From assembly GCF_000003605.2 (NCBI RefSeq), contig NW_003141833.1, forward strand, positions 1 to 34,919: DNA of 34,919 nt, given 5' to 3'. Both the position numbers and the translations under genes were made by a program. Below, piece after piece: positions 25,076 to 34,709 of the stretch (position 1 is the stretch's first letter; each line of letters starts with the position of its first letter). Source of the DNA: Saccoglossus kowalevskii. Its lineage: Eukaryota > Hemichordata > Enteropneusta > Harrimaniidae. The notes under the pieces are model-generated. The model had not been told where the DNA came from. It searched no databases and saw only the letters and a list, made by a program, of their open reading frames with translations.

Positions 25076-27060
25076 GAGAATATACATGATTGTATTTTTT
25101 CACAAAATATCTTTAAAAATGTTTAAAAATAATTGTATAAGTGTTTTTTTGAAACAGAATCTTTGCTCTGTAGTTAAATATATTTACTGTATCTATGAAA
25201 AATAGTTTTTATCATTTGAGCTAATTCATAATTTATTAAAACTCACTTGCCTTCTATTTATTTTTGCAATATTTTTTTGTTAGCCTTATTCACTTTACAT
25301 TGTTGTTGATTGGAATAAACTACAAATTTTACAGTGCCCAATTTTCCATGCTTGGTCTAAAACTAATGTTGAAATTTGAGAAACATCAAAAGAGATCAAA
25401 TCAAAGCAGTATTATGGGATATATTTTGTTTGTTTGTAGAATTTGGTGTATGAAGTACGGTAGTATGTGCTGTATACCAAATGCAACAAATACGATCAGA
25501 AAATGTTTGAGCAATAATGTAGAATCAGTGATGATAGAATTTTCAGAGACTTAGGGCATTAATAAGTTCAATCGAAGTTGCTCACGAAATTGCATGCAGT
25601 CTCTCTAATCGAAGATTTGTTTGATGTCAGAGGATTTGTTTGATGAACTCCAACTTCTCAAGTTGTCCTGTCCTTTTCTTTCTAAATTTATACATGTTAT
25701 AGGAAATTTTATAGCTTTCGTTGCCACTGCACCCACGCAGATCTGCAACATATGGAACATTTATACTTCCTGGGCTAGTTGTTCTCAGAGCGTTCAAAAG
25801 CGGGATTTGAAACAGCATTGCAGATATTTCAGATAAAAAATAAATCAGTCAGGTTAACTCGCAAACACCTTATAGGTTGGTATATACTCCTTGCGCTGCG
25901 CATGTGTGTCATTTGTGTTGATAAACATTGATTTTCCCACAATTCAATGCGCTCTCCAAATGGAAATTACAAGTATGAGGTTTGAACTGGGCGTGACGTG
26001 CATTACGTTAATTACTGCCCGTGACTCCTTTGATACCTTCCAATCACAGTCAGTTGGCGCACAAGTGATAATAAAATAAATGCAATATTTATTATATGGG
26101 GGCCGCCATTGTCATCAAAAATTGTCATTCCAGCTCAGCAGTCAATCAGCGACGTCCTTACAGTTAGATGACAATTTCAGTTTCAAATACGCCGGGAAAG
26201 TGTTCTATGTTCTTTGTGTAATTAGGTATTCGTATTTAAGAGATTTTTCCACACAAAAACAACGAATTCGGCCGAATGTTGTTACCGGTTGGCTTAATAT
26301 TACCCCAATGGATCGTATGTGAAAGATTGGTATTTTTGTCTTTATTTGGAGGAATCTGAAAAACGTGTTTCACAACTTGTCTCTTTCTTTAGTTTCATGC
26401 CGTTTTCAAGATGGTGGTCCCCATATAGTAAATATTGCATTTATTTTATTATCACATGTGTGCCAGCTGACTGTGCTTCCACTCACCAAAAAAAAATACC
26501 AAATGAAAACTTGATAACGTCTCAATTTGTACTCGTTGATCTGCGCAACATTCACAGTCACCATCTTTGTTTATATGAGACACATATACTAGTATCTTGA
26601 GCATGCGTGGCGCGACAACTACCGCCATTTAACTGCATACGGTATTCAAATTCATTGCTTATTTTACTATATATATATATATATACTTTCAATAAGATAA
26701 TACAACTTTAAACTCCATTACCAAGGTACTTAATATCTTGCGTACTAGTATCATTTTGGTAAAGCCAGACAACGTTTACACATAATTTTTTCCCACGATT
26801 TATACAATGGGTATACAAGAACTAATAACAACAGTTCAAACATGAAGAAAGCTGAAAGCGGGAATGGCTGCAAATAATCTTGATCTCGTATATAGTAAAT
26901 GTGTAACCTCCGCTGTGTTCCCTCGATCATATTTTACAACGATAGCGCGATCTCAGTAAACAGTACGTGACTGACGAAGAGTTTATCATAATCTCGCAGT
27001 CATGATTCGTAGATCCATTGGTAATCATTCAGCGTTTAATAATACTTCACTTTCGCTTTC
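25076..27060. other. Intergenic/upstream segment, no supported gene
   Basis: 25337-25400 repeats a ~60-bp phrase found at 23788-23850 (AATTTTCCAT.CTTGGTC.AAAACTA), on the other side of the Helentron-like element. CpG and GC rise slightly from 25.9 kb with GCCGCCATT (26101-26109) and ACCGCCATT (26620-26628) motifs. A (TA)n run sits at about 26669-26685. Short ORFs here have no recognisable family. Confidence 0.45.
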
Positions 27061-27101
27061 ATAAAAGCACGGTTACTAAAAAAGAGTAACCGTGATAAAA
27101 C
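27061..27101. mobile_element. Tiny palindromic element, 27 bp, duplication ATAAAAG/ATAAAAC
   Basis: Element 27068-27094: arm CACGGTTACT, loop AAAAAAG, arm AGTAACCGTG (10-bp perfect stem). The flanking 7-mers match at 6 of 7 positions (27061-27067, 27095-27101). Confidence 0.7.
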
Positions 27102-27521
27102 CGTATGAAACTTGGGAAACTTACAGGTAACAATACGTCCCGTCTTCACTATAGAGACTTGACTTTCTGGTTTTCACTTTACAAAAGTATACAATATCGT
27201 AACAGCACCATTGCTTATTATGAATACAGACAGGTAAGTCAAAGAACCCGGAAGTACCAAGACACGAAGCACCAAGACATCCTTCATTCTCCACCTATTT
27301 CTCGACGCTTGAGGGCGCTGGTGCATATCTCTGCATTGTACATGCATGAGGTTGAGAAAAAAAAATGAAACTGAGCGGGCTATTTGATAGTTATAAGACA
27401 TGTCAATCAATAACTAAACATATTAAATACAAAGCTGATTCCAGCGAGATAAATACTATACAGAATATTTAAATAGCTACATGACATTTTAGAGAATTGA
27501 CTTAAATGTATGAATTAAAGC

Positions 27522-27691
27522 GGGAGTGTCGTCACCTGCGCACGCGCGGGAATTGAGTCCCAAGAGACCAGGGCAAACAGGGCAAACGACAATAACAACA
27601 CACGCTAAAACGCAAAGACTCATGGGTAGACGCTTGTTTGAAAATAATGAAACGCTATGGCCATCTGGCACATGCGCAGGTGACGACTCCC
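27522..27691. repeat. Inverted-repeat structure with 19-21-bp arms
   Basis: Left arm GGGAGTGTCGTCACCTGCGC (27522-27541, next base A) and right arm TGCGCAGGTGACGACTCCC (27673-27691) are reverse complements except for two extra bases. Weaker similarity continues outward (ATGAAT). About 170 bp; could be a MITE or a foldback. It overlaps an NRF-1-like site. Confidence 0.65.
27537..27548. promoter_or_regulatory. NRF-1-like motif TGCGCACGCGCG
   Basis: Perfect match to the palindromic consensus YGCGCAYGCGCR. Rare in this AT-rich window and compatible with a CpG-type promoter nearby, but it lies inside an inverted repeat and no transcript start can be shown. Confidence 0.3.
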
Positions 27692-28659
27692 CCAGAAGCC
27701 TATTCATAAACGCAAATACGCAAAATTTAATTATTTTGCAATAAATTGTACTCCCGGGCAATAGAAAGATAATGGCCTAAAAAGTTCGGGGGTTACCAGC
27801 CTAATTTCGAGAAAATGGAAGTTATATTTTTAGTTTGATAGTGGCCATTTTGTAAGTATTACAACGCTTTCATCATCATAGGTCCCATCACAGTATATAT
27901 ATTGTGACTAATGGGGTATTTTTCGTTTTACTGAATTATTTCAAAAATCGAGTTTTAAAAAGGGCCTCTAATATTCCGAAAACCATGCTCAAGGTGACTT
28001 ATTATTTTCATATTTCACAATCAAGATTGTATTTTACTGTGCATATTTACTGTGTTTATTTGAACTAAATTCATGGCGACTTTTGTACAACATATTGTTG
28101 TCGTTTTTTCTCAATGTCTAAGAGATGTTCTTGTTTTGTTTGGCATTTTTTTCATTCAAGGGAAACTTACTCAAATAGTAGTTGCAGACTTTATATAACA
28201 TTTAACCAGCCTGCATTTGGCGTCTTGAAATTTGAGAGTAAATCAGCGATCAACCGTTTTTTACGATAGGAAAACTTGGTAATCCTATCACAAATGTAAA
28301 AGTTGCTACCACAAAATGGGACCAACAAACAACTTCTTTTCTTTCATTCCCCATGTAACCATAAACATGGAAAGAATATCATCCCCTGATTATACAACAC
28401 TTACATCAACACTTATTGAAAATAATCTTGGCATGGATTTGGAGATATTCGGTAGCGCATGGTCCTTTGTGGAAGGACTGTGCATAGGTGTCGTCAGGTT
28501 ACCGTTCGCTGATCGTGTACCTTAAAATACAACAATGTTACCGATATGTCTGATATACTTTACTGTGAGCTTAGAGTGTACTGGTTAAATTATATTGCCT
28601 GTAATGAGAATAAGAGCTGAATAAAACAATATTGTCTACTAAGATGGTGTCTGTGGAGG
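27692..28659. other. No supported gene
   Basis: Contains a 69-codon ORF (28316-28525) followed by AATAAA at 28619-28624, with no recognisable family. A hairpin GTCCTT...AAGGAC bounded by CATGG/CTGTG (28458-28482) lacks a matching flanking duplication. Confidence 0.4.
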
Positions 28660-28694
28660 AGTACACCATGGATGTAGTACATCCATGAATACAC
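28660..28694. mobile_element. Tiny palindromic element, 21 bp, duplication AGTACAC/AATACAC
   Basis: Element 28667-28687: CATGGATGTA, G, TACATCCATG (10-bp perfect arms). Flanks match at 6 of 7 bases. Confidence 0.75.
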
Positions 28695-29713
28695 TCAATA
28701 ATTACTAGTAGTTCAAAGGAGTATTTTCAAACGAATTTAATCTGATTTTCTGCATTGTTTTCTTTGCCTCTCAATTGTCGTTTCCGTTTATTCAGCCAAA
28801 GATACCTCGTTTACACGGCAGCATTTTATCGAGATGAGTTCGGCTCCGAAAAATCCCTGGGTTAAGCTTAGGTTGTACTCGGTTTGTAAAGTAAATAAAT
28901 CATGTCAAATTACAACGAAGAACAATACGAATAATTTATTAAGGAGGGAACCATGGATGTAAATGAACAAACTATTTACCTACAAATACTAGGCCCATGA
29001 ACAAACCAAACCTCCCAGAAGACTAACGTTTGTTTTCATGACTATGGCGTTGCTAGGTGTTAAGTCATTCTGTATTACACCACCTCTATGATTACACCCA
29101 TATTTGCAGGGTAGTGCATTACGAAACATCACGTCTCATAATGTTGTATTGATACACCGTGATTAATATACTAGTTCAGAAATAACAAATATAATACACA
29201 CTTCATTTGCTCAGAATTGTAGAAATATTGGTAATGTCGGATGAATGGACGACCAGAAACAGTCCACCCATGGATTTTTTTTCTTTCAGATATTTTAACT
29301 TATCATCGTGTTCAAACTTGAGAAAATTTGACTGACGCATAATTCTTTCCCATATGCCATCTTTTCGGAATTATACAGTAATATGTTTTAATATTCTTCG
29401 TCACCCCCTAATTAACAGAGATTTATGGTAATTCAAATGAATTGCGTTTTCAAGTGTTCAAGATCGTAAAAAAAATAAAATAAGCTGAGAACACTGCTTC
29501 TCGGTTCGATCTATACTTTCCGATACCGAGTTGACTCACGGAAATGTGTTTATTTATTGTCACCTGACATCACAAATATGCTTGGACTACATGTACAATT
29601 CACTTCTCTATTTTCTACTTTCCACCAATTAACAGGGGACTATCTGTTGTGCAGTCGGGCGGAACGAAAGCCGAGTCAACGACAAAGCGTGCCAAGATCA
29701 TCGAATATGCTTA

Positions 29714-29756
29714 GACGGACCATGGAAGTAGCTCCTTTCTACCTCCATGGACGGAC
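29714..29756. mobile_element. Tiny palindromic element, 29 bp, duplication GACGGAC
   Basis: Element 29721-29749 starts CATGGA-A-GTAG and ends CTAC-C-TCCATG (stem 6+4 with a central loop). Perfect 7-bp repeats at 29714-29720 and 29750-29756. Confidence 0.8.
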
Positions 29757-29786
29757 CATAGAGTTGTTTTAGTTCCATGGACGGAC
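29750..29786. mobile_element. Tiny element, 23 bp, sharing duplication GACGGAC
   Basis: Element 29757-29779 starts CATAGA and ends TTCCATG, weakly palindromic. Flanked by GACGGAC at 29750-29756 and 29780-29786, so it shares one copy of the duplication with its left neighbour. Confidence 0.7.
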
Positions 29787-29820
29787 TTGTTTACCTCTTT
29801 CAACTACGGACTAATTTGTA

Positions 29821-29838
29821 GCTCGAGCCGGCTCGAGC
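29821..29838. repeat. Perfect 18-bp palindrome GCTCGAGCC-GGCTCGAGC
   Basis: Self-complementary GC-rich palindrome in an otherwise AT-rich region. No 7-bp flanking duplication, so it differs from the CA...TG elements. Confidence 0.8.
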
Positions 29839-30106
29839 CAAGTTCGGCTCTACTAAACCCTCGGGGTTGAATTCCGATAGGGTTGAGTCCCGACATGGCT
29901 CCGATCGTGTAAACGCATCGGGGCCCAACTATCGGAGCCGGAATCACGCCCTCAATCGTCTTTTTCGAATAACCTCTCATTTCAATTATGGCGGAGACAA
30001 CATCTTTCATAATTTCACGAAATTTCCGGGTTGAATAAGAGGTACGCGTCCTAATATATAGTAACGAATTATTGCGATAAATTGATAGCTCAACGGGAAA
30101 CAGAAA

Positions 30107-30219
30107 ATGGCGTACGAAATTATGCGACAAAAACTCGAAAGAACGACTGAACGGAAACTTTTTAAAGACACTAAAGATAAAAATCGTAGAAGCGATCACG
30201 GTACGATGACGTGTTCCTG
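30107..30219 (+). CDS. Possible first coding exon of an unknown plus-strand gene
   Basis: ATG in good context (GAAAATGG) opens a charged reading frame beginning MAYEIMRQKLERTTERKLFK. A donor-like CTG|GTAGGT follows at 30219/30220, just before the in-frame stop at 30221. No downstream exon was identified and no family is recognised. It lies inside the possible transposon relic 28809-30699 and may be spurious. Confidence 0.2.
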
Positions 30220-30229
30220 GTAGGTTTAG

Positions 30230-30278
30230 ATTCTTCCATAGTTTCTCTATGATAGATAGAGAGAATCTGTGATTCTTC
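30230..30278. mobile_element. Tiny palindromic element, 35 bp, duplication ATTCTTC
   Basis: Element 30237-30271: CATAG-TTTCTCTAT near the left, ATAGAGAGAA and CTGTG at the right; about 12 paired positions around a short centre. Perfect 7-bp repeats at 30230-30236 and 30272-30278. Confidence 0.72.
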
Positions 30279-30709
30279 CTAGTAGTTTAGATATCACTAC
30301 AGTTGAATAGTTACAAAATGGTAATTTTGCATGACAATAACTTGAGCGAATAGGCTGTATTAGACGCATTTTAGCTGCCGTGTTTCCTGTTTATTCGAGA
30401 TACTAGTACCTAAATCGTAATACCAGTCATTGTCTTTTCTACCTCCATAGTCAGGCTCTTTTTTCTCCTAGCCCAACAGCATCATGCCATGTAAAGAAAA
30501 AACACAAGCACGACACTAAAATCGTTCTCAGTCACTAATTATTCAAGGGCACTGTTCCGTTCGACTCTGATCGAACTAAATCGAACTCTGGCAGATCTCG
30601 GTTCTCGTTCGGCTCCGATCGTATGAACGCATTGGAGATAATCTGCTGTTAATCCGTGGGAGAAGTAGTTCGGCTCCGATAGAATGCTGCCGTGTGAACA
30701 TAGTAAATG

Positions 30710-30741
30710 TATAAATCATGGAGGTACCTCCATGTATAAAT
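30710..30741. mobile_element. Tiny palindromic element, 18 bp, duplication TATAAAT
   Basis: CATGGAGGTACCTCCATG (30717-30734) is a perfect palindrome with perfect 7-bp flanks at 30710-30716 and 30735-30741. The shortest and cleanest member. Confidence 0.82.
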
Positions 30742-31359
30742 GAACTATTGATGAGATTGAAGCATTGGATACGCAAGATCCTCGTGCATATTTTGTTTTA
30801 TCATGGTTATATTTTATATTTATTAAGTTCAATTTAATTTAAGTTATTCCACGTCCCCGTGGTCAGAGTAAAACTAAGTGTCTATGATTTAATGGTTCAT
30901 ATTTATTATTTGTTTAGTTAGACAAATTTATATTTTTTTTCCAATTTCTTTCTTTTAACCAAACGTTTGACTAACAGTTATTGTCATTTTTTCAATAAGT
31001 TGAGATGTTTTTCTCCCGAATATGCATAAGCATTTCGAGGAGGCATATTTGCAGTGGCCATGTGTTGTATTCCCGAGTTTCATGTGTATATGTTCGAAAT
31101 GTGGCTGTGTTTACATAGATTATTGAAGTCATCTCAAAGTTGCCATACCTACATAATTTGACTCTGCTGTTACCACCCGATCGTCCCCATATCAATACGC
31201 AAACCATGAATACATGTACCAACAAATGATTACATTCGTTGCTTACCATTACACTTTATTTAGGTCGTATGCCGACTTTAAATACCGTGTTAAAGTAACG
31301 TCACCAACGAAACTCGTGACATTATGCGTTGCCACAAAACATGAAATCATCGTTGAAGC
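30742..31359. other. No supported gene
   Basis: AT-rich. A short CCACG/CGTGG hairpin lies at 30850-30863. No other feature recognised. Confidence 0.5.
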
Positions 31360-31399
31360 TACTAATCACAGCCCCTCTATATAGGGACTGAGTACTAAC
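31360..31399. mobile_element. Tiny palindromic element, 26 bp, duplication TACTAAT/TACTAAC
   Basis: Element 31367-31392 starts CACAG-C-CCCT and ends AGGG-A-CTGAG (10 of 13 positions pair). The flanks match at 6 of 7. The terminal TG appears mutated to AG. Confidence 0.65.
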
Positions 31400-31406
31400 A
31401 CAAAAC

Positions 31407-31620
31407 AAGTGGTGGCGGCACAGGGGGGAGGGGCAGGACGACCGCTCCCTGGAAAAAATATTGGGGGCGTCGCCCCTCTAAAATCAAACTGAAACCCCTT
31501 GTGTCAGCAAAATTTGCCCCTCAAAATGCAGGAAATAGCGTTTCAGAGAGTCTTCGGCCCAAGGTTGACGAGCTGATCTTGCCCCTCATGCACAATTTCG
31601 TGCCGCAACCTCTGACAACT
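31407..31620. repeat. Compositionally distinct GC-rich block, probable old repeat
   Basis: Rich in GGGGAGGGGCAGG, GGGGGCGTCGCCCCTC and TTGCCCCTCA, with CAAAATGCAGGAAATAGCGT. Strongly unlike the surroundings. No open reading frame of use; probably a decayed transposon fragment, family not identified. Confidence 0.35.
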
Positions 31621-32483
31621 ATCCTAGCATTTTATATTTTATTGAGAAGCTTGTAGATTGGCACATAGTGAGGATGACGTGGTTAACTCTGTGATTTCCC
31701 AACAATTCTTGTTATTTACCGGTGCTGGAGAAAGAAGAACTATATATACATAGTCGTGTTCAAAAACATATGTAACTACATTTTGTAAATTGAAATTGTT
31801 TGTTCTATTAAGAGAAAGCGAAAAGTATTTGTCGCAGCACTAATTCATTACTACTTTCACTAAAGGTCAAATCTGAAGTCATTCTGGATTATTTAAATAC
31901 CATGAGGGATGTACGGGCACCTCAAACACGTATCCAAGAGCGAGTTGTGCGGGCATGCATAAGTCACAACACTGATTTGTGCGTGTCGATCTACTTTCAT
32001 CTTATTTTTGTCTTTTTTATTTTGGTGCATTTAAAAATACGAATGGTACCACTATTCAAAACTGCATTCTTTGTCCTTTGGTTACTTGATAATGATATCT
32101 TACAACATATTTGACAGTACACGAAGACTTGACTTACGTGGCATCTGCATACCGTCCAAACATTCTGCGTGCCCGTACAACTCGCCCTCAGATAAGCTTT
32201 CGGTGCACCCGTAAATACATGATGCCATTCACGTTCGCCTTACGTAAACATCATTGTTTATAATCCCAAAAATAATAAACGATGGTGGCATCTTTGTTGA
32301 TTTTAGATTTACAGAAACCCCTCCTACAACAACGCTAGAATATAGTGGCACACAGCGCCGTTGTTGTGCCTTCAAATTTTTAAATCCAAAACTCCATTCC
32401 ATTCACTATGTAAACTAAATGTAAACTGTGAAAAAAATAATCCAAATCCGAGTATAATTTGTGCATGCACCGGCTGCTCTATG
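31621..32483. other. No supported gene
   Basis: A 70-codon ORF (31902-32114) has no recognisable domain. No repeat recognised. Confidence 0.45.
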
Positions 32484-32528
32484 GTCGGACCATGGAGCTA
32501 TAACAGATATATAACTCCATGGTCGGAC
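32484..32528. mobile_element. Tiny palindromic element, 31 bp, duplication GTCGGAC
   Basis: Element 32491-32521: CATGGAG-C-TATA at the left and TATA-A-CTCCATG at the right around a short loop. Perfect 7-bp repeats at 32484-32490 and 32522-32528. Confidence 0.8.
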
Positions 32529-34091
32529 AAACATGACATTGAAATAGAACATTATTAATAAAAAAAAGTCCGCCGGATACTGGACACAAAATCAGATTCT
32601 CAAATTTATTTGTCTTCCGTTGTGTCGGTTCATGGTAAATGGGAGCTATGTGCTGCACTTCGGTACATGCGTTTTCCTGGTAAGCCTAGTGTTCTTTGGG
32701 GGGATTTATTCATCGTCATTATTGCCGTTCGGTACACGACATTACGTCAAAAGTTGATTATATCGTTATATTTAATTTTCCAACTATCAACAACGTAGCT
32801 TTGAAGTTATGGTGCAATTCACTGTCGTTTGTCATGTTCTTACTAATTGTATAGTGCAGCAAATATGTTCGAATAGAGGTATTTCTTGGATGAAACCGTA
32901 ATAATTGAAAGGCATAGATTCGAGTCTTCTTTTCATTCTATCAATCTGGCTTTCACACACAGGTCACGTGATTGCGATCGTTCCCAATTAAATATACTAT
33001 TGATTCATTATGTGTTATATTCAATGTTCGGAGTCATTCGAAGTTCAAAGTGGCGTTTGATTGCGTATACTAGTATTGTAATCGCACAATGACATCACAC
33101 AGAGATAATACAACAAAGAAAAATGAAATATTCGGAATGTTAAAATTACAAAAGAGTTTTTATATACATGTATTACAAACGACGCATGAATCAATACGAT
33201 ATTGTGAAATACGTGAATTGAATGTCCAGTGGCGTTTTGTCTTACACTCACCCTGTCGCCCAAACACACCAAGAGGACTAATTTATAGAGTTTCGGCCAG
33301 TGTTTTGCAGAATGCGGGTTTTTTCGTCTTCGCACATGTTTCCTCACAAACAATAACTGGTGAATACGATTAGTTTATTTATGTCATTGTGTTAATAACT
33401 TGTTAATACATTAATAAAGCCTTTATTGCAGCCCCCTGGTACATGGCACGACAAGCACGGCATATATATTGTCATCTACTAATAACGTGTGCGTTACGAT
33501 CACGACCTATTTATTATTTTCTATTTTTTAAAGGGGAACCGCTCAATCCCATGGATTGCACCAAAGAATCATGGGACACTATTGTTTATGTTGTTTACAA
33601 TGTTAATCTATCTTTTGTTATCCATTGTTATTTTAATCCAGAAAGTAAATTTGTTGTGAAATTAATCTTAACTGGAAGGTGCCCCTTTAAATACGACTGA
33701 AAACAGAAAAAAAAAAACAGAATGTGTTATCGGGAAAGCCTATTGTTTTCTTTCGCAGATCATTCTGATGATGTCGGAAATGATAATACACACCGCGTGA
33801 CGATTACATTGTATATATTTGTAGATTGAATAAACATCTGGGGGATTAACATTTTAGTTTATTCAAACTGTGATTGACGGGTATTTTGCATATATTAGCC
33901 GCTATTGTAAAACAGCGTTGTTCACGTGCGTGTCACGGTACATTTCGGTCGCAAAGAACCATGGGTGAAATTGTTAGCGCATATATTCATGGTCCTACCG
34001 AGATATGTTCGGAGTCATAAGTAGGCCTCAAAACATCTACCCAGAGCTTGAGTCGAATTAGCATACTCATTTCGGGTGCCATCTTGCTCTC
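32529..34091. other. No supported gene
   Basis: Several ORFs of 62-102 codons on both strands, none with a recognisable family or convincing splice context. No repeat structure is clear. Confidence 0.45.
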
Positions 34092-34288
34092 TATATACCC
34101 TCGGTTTTGAGAATCAATTGCGGGCACTCACGAACAGACAGTCATAGTTATATATGATGACAAGAAAATCAAAATCTCGGAGCAATAAACGCACTTCAAA
34201 TTTCAATGTGAATAATATTACAAAAGTCATTTATTGTATGTGTTGGTCGTACTGTAAACCAGAAAAAGCACGTACTTTATTTTTATGA
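34092..34288 (+). promoter_or_regulatory. Weak candidate TATA core promoter followed by a 44-codon ORF
   Basis: TATATA begins at 34092. A CA dinucleotide in CGGGCACTCA lies about 30 bases downstream, and an ATG at 34154 opens MMTRKSKSRSNKRTSNFNVN and runs to TGA at 34286-34288. Spacing is plausible for a Pol II start, but the peptide is unknown and chance is likely in AT-rich DNA. Confidence 0.15.
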
Positions 34289-34372
34289 TGTCGTTAATGT
34301 ATGTCACGTACGTACTTCCCCCACCGAAAACAATATGGTCGTATATTTTATCGTAGTTTGCTACGTTCTAAG

Positions 34373-34448
34373 TTGGGTCGATTGTTGATGACTGTTCAAT
34401 CGAAACAGTCTTTCAAACATCAATGAGTTCGAACTATGACCGACCCAA
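34373..34448. repeat. 76-bp nested inverted repeat
   Basis: Outer arms TTGGGTCG (34373-34380) and CGACCCAA (34441-34448). Inner complementary pairs TTGATG/CATCAA and GACTGTT/AACAGTC allow a long interrupted hairpin. No obvious flanking duplication. Confidence 0.55.
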
Positions 34449-34626
34449 GATATATATATCTAAAATTTTAAACTACATAATTCGGTTGCCTACATGTAAC
34501 AAAACTGTATTTGAAAAAAAAATACAGCTGGCTAAATGGTGAGCTAGTAGTTTAATTACCAATGTAAGTGGATAGTATTTTTAGTATCCGCGATACAGTT
34601 CAGCACCCTGACTGGCTTGATTACTA

Positions 34627-34666
34627 CTTGATACATAGACCTTAGAAAGAAGGTCTATGCTTGATA
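34627..34666. mobile_element. Tiny palindromic element, 26 bp, duplication CTTGATA
   Basis: Element 34634-34659: CATAGACCTT, loop AGAAAG, AAGGTCTATG (10-bp perfect stem). Perfect 7-bp repeats at 34627-34633 and 34660-34666. Confidence 0.82.
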
Positions 34667-34667
34667 C

Positions 34668-34709
34668 TACTGGGCACAGTCCCTCAACACTGAGGGACTG
34701 TGTACTGGG
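34668..34709. mobile_element. Tiny palindromic element, 28 bp, duplication TACTGGG
   Basis: Element 34675-34702: CACAGTCCCTCA, loop ACAC, TGAGGGACTGTG (12-bp perfect stem). Perfect 7-bp repeats at 34668-34674 and 34703-34709. One base separates it from the right duplication of its neighbour. Confidence 0.85.

Follow-up and report, generated by a model that had tools for sequence, protein, structure and literature searches.

P transposase cuts DNA with a 17-nt stagger (PMC7776569), and the junctions of the Drosophila P element, as tabulated in PMC2895639 (Table 1), consist of the target duplication, CATGATGAAATAACATA or a part of it, a microhomology or templated filler, the complement, and the duplication again. 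Ten short palindromes with a comparable layout lie between positions 27068 and 34702 of a stretch of Saccoglossus kowalevskii DNA, the first 34,919 nt of contig C3295 in a genome of 572 Mb (G000); this whole stretch is called the window. The palindromes are very probably repaired excision sites, or footprints, of DNA transposons of the P superfamily or of their non-autonomous derivatives. The process itself is familiar, but this one genome has kept hundreds of such scars, ten of them in one short stretch.

The ten sites stand where an initial annotation of the window had placed them, and all coordinates were confirmed. Each is flanked by a pair of 7-mers, and a recount returned the same state as that annotation, with identity in 7/10 and a match at 6 of 7 positions in 3/10 (27068, 28667 and 31367). 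All ten begin with CA and nine end with TG, the site at 31367 ending with AG. A strict scan of the whole window (CAYRG...CYRTG, insert of 14–40 nt, at least 6 of 7 positions shared by the flanking 7-mers) found nine sites, every one of them among the ten, and none in positions 1–27000; the site at 31367 was missed because its right end is CTGAG. In 60 second-order Markov controls the mean was 0.03 strict sites, and sites with exact 7-mers numbered 0, against 7 observed. A looser scan, which required exact 7-mers but a single strict end and allowed inserts of 8–45 nt, added weaker candidates, two within the cluster (28016–28041, CATATTT; 29081–29090, ATTACAC) and outside it the overlapping pair 2425–2443/2427–2445 (TGTCATG). 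It also gave three extra matches (L014, L017, L021) in a comparison sample of twenty 10-kb stretches, 14 of them from one contig, with 145,159 of 200,000 bases readable (two stretches are all N, and others partly N). Over 10 runs, the Markov mean of the looser scan was 0.0 in the window, and in the sampled loci it was 0.4. An origin by chance, or by slippage that creates repeats in low-complexity DNA, deserves practically no weight: Markov models do omit some of the processes that make short repeats, but the controls lie near zero, there is one single duplication length, and the counts contradict such an origin. The earlier judgement that coincidence is not credible is upheld.

Arms like those in the window recur across the genome. 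The pattern CACAGTCCCT-(0–30 nt)-AGGGACTGTG, from the arms of the palindrome at 34675 (CACAG type), matches 418 places; CATGGAGGTA..TACCTCCATG, from the arms of 30717 (CATGG type), matches 189, although 30717 itself is too short to match; and CATAGACCTT..AAGGTCTATG, from the arms of 34634 (CATAG type), matches 117. Each reversed-pattern control gave 0; a genome-wide search, which the initial annotation had proposed, exceeds its controls. Flanks were read at the first 20 CACAG places listed, where the 7-bp duplication is exact in 14 and matches at 6/7 in 3, and at five CATGG places, four of them selected as long perfect palindromes, where it is exact in four and 6/7 in one. With the ten window sites, one from the sample and seven asymmetric footprints, this makes 43 footprints with flanks, the 7-bp duplication being exact in 32 and matching at 6/7 in 8; no exact duplication of 4, 5, 6, 8 or 9 bp was present in any of the 43. 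Duplications had helped to recognise the rows from the window, from the sample and from the asymmetric group; in the 25 rows selected by insert alone (20 CACAG and 5 CATGG) the figures are 18 exact and 4 at 6/7. One kind of transposase, which had been proposed from the constant duplication length in the window, is supported by these counts. At three places (C202:113574, C310:61064 and C1211:714503) an apparent footprint is nested in, or adjoins, another of its own type.

Inserts of the CACAG type become scarce beyond 34 nt. Among 50 CACAG places listed, 45 do not exceed 34 nt (9 are of 33 nt and 7 of 34 nt), while the remainder measure 35 (one), 36 (two), 46 (one, a row that encloses another listed row) and 47 nt (one). 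Since 71 places match the CACAG pattern for 35–65 nt, at least 347 of the 418 CACAG places are of 34 nt or less. The longest perfect palindromes among the CACAG matches listed are CACAGTCCCTCTATCAC and CACAGTCCCTCAACACC, each followed by its own complement (17+17). At most 34 nt are found in 44 of 50 listed places of the CATGG type and in 40 of 50 of the CATAG type, for which the maximum is 42. A 17-nt limit is a good fit for one end type, and others reach 18–19. The joints of the 50 listed CACAG places comprise 11 with microhomology (1–2 nt), 13 blunt and 26 with filler (1–17 nt), in a classification based on three assumed end consensuses, so that some "filler" may be variant ends. Longer CACAG members contain copied-looking filler, for example CTATCATAGATAGATAGAG. 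No constant inner sequence between the arms was seen among the listed places, and the arms are unequally trimmed.

The same ends also bound a longer element. The 17-nt CACAG end followed by any base except G occurs at 138 places, and at locus L064 on contig C532 an inward-facing pair of ends encloses a complete 318-bp element flanked by two copies of ATTTCAC; its two ends share their first 17 nt and then diverge. This is the one end type for which a full-length element with the same ends was examined. Twelve other places were read. Five (L067, L069, L070, L071 and L073) are element ends, because they continue into shared internal sequence, L071 matching L064 at 95.7% over 70 bp. Six are asymmetric footprints, with the full 17 nt on one side and a trimmed other side (five exact duplications, one of 6/7), and the last, L075, was left unclassified. 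The next base is C in all five element ends and in 22 of 100 listed places of the 17-nt pattern. Set against the 418 footprints, such numbers suggest, without proof, that the genome has more scars than intact elements; the two patterns are unequally strict. L067 and L073 are identical over 48 nt down to CTATTGTAC, after which L067 has a 34-nt CATAGACC footprint and L073 continues; on the near flank of L067 only, they are a possible empty-site pair. Two candidates, one for an intact element end and one for a whole element, were rejected. The CATAGACC end in L067 belongs to the 34-nt footprint, which is nested in an element. A supposed 2.4-kb element on C2789 (L065), with two inward-facing 17-nt ends around 2,405 bp, was discarded because its left end is itself a footprint, flanked by GTCAGTC twice over, and its outer flanks mismatch.

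In the scheme that we infer, from the enzyme and its cut position to the filler-making enzyme and the order of events, insertion of a P-type element would first generate the 7-bp duplication. At both ends of the element, transposase would later cut one strand at the border and the opposite strand about 17 nt further in, leaving each donor end with up to about 17 nt of the terminal repeat. End joining would then trim the tails and unite them directly, through 1–2 nt of microhomology, or with a short filler. The product would read duplication, left remnant, right remnant, duplication, with an insert usually of 34 nt or less. Because the stagger of P transposase is 17 nt, each terminal repeat would keep at most 17 nt between the duplications; the scar would be palindromic because the remnants are inverted repeats; and the inner sequences would vary, several end types having been excised and every joint trimmed independently.

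The initial annotation had taken the palindromes to be inserted as such, as units of 18–35 bp, and had found no described class to match them. Neither statement is supported, since the arms are the outer tips of terminal repeats, trimmed and joined variably, the arrangement resembles that of P excision junctions, and the intact L064 has the same ends and a 7-bp duplication. Its further suggestion, palindromic products of a repair-coupled insertion, came close, but the repair most likely followed excision and not insertion. The palindromes might still be mobile themselves, as extremely short P-type miniature inverted-repeat transposable elements (MITEs) that insert at 18–35 bp; constant 7-bp duplications and CA...TG ends would agree with this, and identical inserts do recur (CACAGTCCCTGAGGGACTGTG at C130 and C136). 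We consider it very improbable, given the unequal trimming and the microhomology or filler at the joints, the mutual dissimilarity of many listed inserts, among which no shared, amplified body was seen, and the presence of these ends on a longer intact element. Known P elements, moreover, require more than 100 bp per end in order to move (PMC1562414).

As to the superfamily, the duplications lean to GTYNRAC, a consensus that is palindromic by construction as both strands were counted, and 41 target sites have 2.22 of 6 complementary pairs against a background of 1.60 (z 3.6), and are thus more palindromic than the background. A motif score derived from the target sites themselves is circular and was set aside in favour of this measure. 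The P-type RNase H domain (PF21787) is matched 13 times in the genome and was detected again by Pfam in three of five open frames scanned, with a best E of 1.1e-27. Long open frames occur at some of the P-type transposase loci L031–L034 (610 aa in L031), and L033 has a weak zf-AD match below the cut-off. At L041, a CACAGTCCC end next to a decayed transposase was rejected as a direct link because similarity to another transposase locus extends on both sides of CACAGTCCC. Of the P-like transposases and longer elements with the same ends for which the initial annotation suggested a search, the genome has the former as 13 PF21787 matches and the latter as the 318-bp L064; none of the transposases was linked to the ends. 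The scars could instead derive from a non-P cut-and-paste superfamily that likewise cuts far inside its ends and makes 7-bp duplications. In favour of this, the scans of the transposase loci gave no P transposase encoded by an element with these ends; the duplication and the ends do fit P. Yet a 7-bp duplication with a palindromic target is as in Galileo, the 17-nt tails are as in Drosophila P, P-type transposase domains are present in the genome, and a stagger of such length is not known to us from any other superfamily; a non-P source appears very improbable.

Several points weigh against excision scars of P-type elements. Two of the 20 CACAG places read have no duplication, and one matches at 5/7. 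The longest perfect palindromes of the CATGG type measure 34, 36 and 38 nt (at most 19+19 among the matches listed), of which the 36- and 38-nt examples are adverse, and 10 of 50 listed CATAG places exceed 34 nt; 17 is therefore no universal limit. In scans of 13 transposase loci, which gave three marginal matches, no P-type transposase gene tied to these ends was found, nor was any exact CACAG end on transposase loci among the matches listed, and for this reason membership in the P superfamily rests on anatomy. That anatomy, with CA...TG ends and 7-bp duplications, does support the resemblance to the P superfamily remarked on earlier. One transposase frame has the Drosophila P transposase as its sole PDB match, and a weak one (E 0.0048). 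PF12017 has 0 matches in the genome, but it has 0 in control genomes too and so is uninformative. The window member at 30237–30271 (30230–30278 with flanks), of 35 nt and with unequal arms CATAGTTTCT / AGAATCTGTG between two copies of ATTCTTC, is poorly explained, the worst of the ten. The density of ten footprints within 7.6 kb is likewise unexplained.

That density is out of keeping with the sample. Strict footprints number nine in 7.6 kb of the window, against one in the 145,159 readable bases. For the three counted end types, 0.044 places are expected per 34.9 kb and two are present (P ~0.001, in a window picked because of them). The G+C content is 36–39% in 2-kb steps from 26 to 34 kb, against 24–35% before (one step with 473 Ns), and the 20 kb beyond the window are N except for 120 bases that overlap it. 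On contigs up to C506, three pairs lie 5 kb or less apart where 0.53 are expected; all three come from a single place on C8, at which one of three footprints is without a duplication (L045); as evidence of clustering elsewhere this is suggestive only. P elements are reported to hop locally and to favour promoters and origins (PMC7776569), and either tendency would fit the window cluster. It is possible, if on balance doubtful, that 27–34.7 kb is a true hotspot, repeatedly entered and left by P-type families (CACAG, CATGG, CATAG and CACGG) with one 7-mer reused. This would entail that natural P landing zones are readable via scars only, that scars exceed intact elements genome-wide, and that the tail is 17–19 nt according to family.

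The footprint 27068–27094 (27061–27101 with flanks; 27 nt) has arms CACGGTTACT / AGTAACCGTG between ATAAAAG and ATAAAAC, and that at 28667–28687 (28660–28694; 21 nt) has arms CATGGATGTA between AGTACAC and AATACAC. Two adjoining footprints follow. The first, 29721–29749 (29714–29756; 29 nt), with GACGGAC on both sides, has an inward right arm CATGGAGGTAGAAAGGAG that resembles a 38-nt palindrome type at C560. The second, 29757–29779 (29750–29786; 23 nt), has unequal arms that pair at 6/11 positions only, in line with the weak self-pairing noted initially, and its left GACGGAC is common to the first. We read 29714–29786, with three copies of GACGGAC around two footprints, as two cycles at one target. 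At 30717–30734 (30710–30741) is an 18-nt perfect palindrome, CATGGAGGTACCTCCATG, between two copies of TATAAAT; its end type has longer places elsewhere in the genome. Nearby, TTCTACCTCCATAGTCAGGC at 30437–30456 resembles a lone CATGG-type right arm with its left side lost. A decayed CACAGYCCCTCTATA type occupies 31367–31392 (31360–31399; 26 nt), between TACTAAT and TACTAAC, and 32491–32521 (32484–32528; 31 nt) has arms CATGGAGCTATAACAGA / CATGGAGTTATA with GTCGGAC on both sides. In 34634–34659 (34627–34666; 26 nt; CTTGATA on both sides) a left arm of 17 nt, CATAGACCTTAGAAAGA, is joined to a right arm of 9 nt; a 34-nt footprint at C172:142621–142654 begins with the same 17 nt. The last, 34675–34702 (34668–34709; 28 nt), is of the CACAGTCCCTCAACACC type, with 16 nt on the left and 12 nt on the right between two copies of TACTGGG.

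Other repeats share this part of the window. A 68-nt inverted repeat at 26042–26478 (90% complementary, arms 301 nt apart) is MITE- or foldback-like, and another of 67 nt lies at 31896–32229 (70% complementary, arms 200 nt apart). An element of about 172 bp at 27522–27693 has 26-nt inverted ends (GGGAGTGTCGTCACCTGCGCAC..), and a 1-kb query over it gave at least 48 genome matches. Repeats of GGCTCCGATCGTRTRAACGCATYGG and related GTTCGGCTCCGAT units occupy 29897–30686.

If the palindromes are P-type excision scars, one assembly holds hundreds of natural repair junctions from one defined type of break, from which one could read, without experiment, where P-type transposases cut and how end joining proceeds in a non-model germline. 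Some caution follows for annotation, in that short palindromes between 7-bp repeats, mistaken for a new element class or for regulatory palindromes, can be scars. Were the clustering real, natural P target preference would be testable. In the open PMC literature, with subscription papers mostly outside its scope, we found no genome-wide catalogue of natural P-type footprints.

Among described systems, the P-derived MITEs of Anopheles gambiae are likewise non-autonomous and have P-type ends, and may be compared with the 318-bp L064, but their duplications are of 8 bp (PMC1562414); the word "footprint" does not occur in the main text of that paper. The zebrafish THAP9 / Pdre2 system has a P-type transposase outside Drosophila and imprecise repair after excision, and differs in its 8-bp duplications and in the larger flanking deletions seen in assays (PMC10983969). 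Galileo, of the P superfamily in Drosophila, shares mostly 7-bp duplications and a palindromic target, with the consensus GTANTAC, and differs in its long terminal repeats (PMC4168063; the same paper gives a target motif for 1360, also of the P superfamily in Drosophila). The excision junctions of P in Drosophila melanogaster are alike in retaining up to 17 nt per end, in microhomology or filler, and in CA...TG ends, and unlike in their 8-bp duplication and in coming from one element in one experiment (PMC2895639). In contrast, the footprints described here have duplications of 7 bp and several end types, and are natural and fixed in the assembly.

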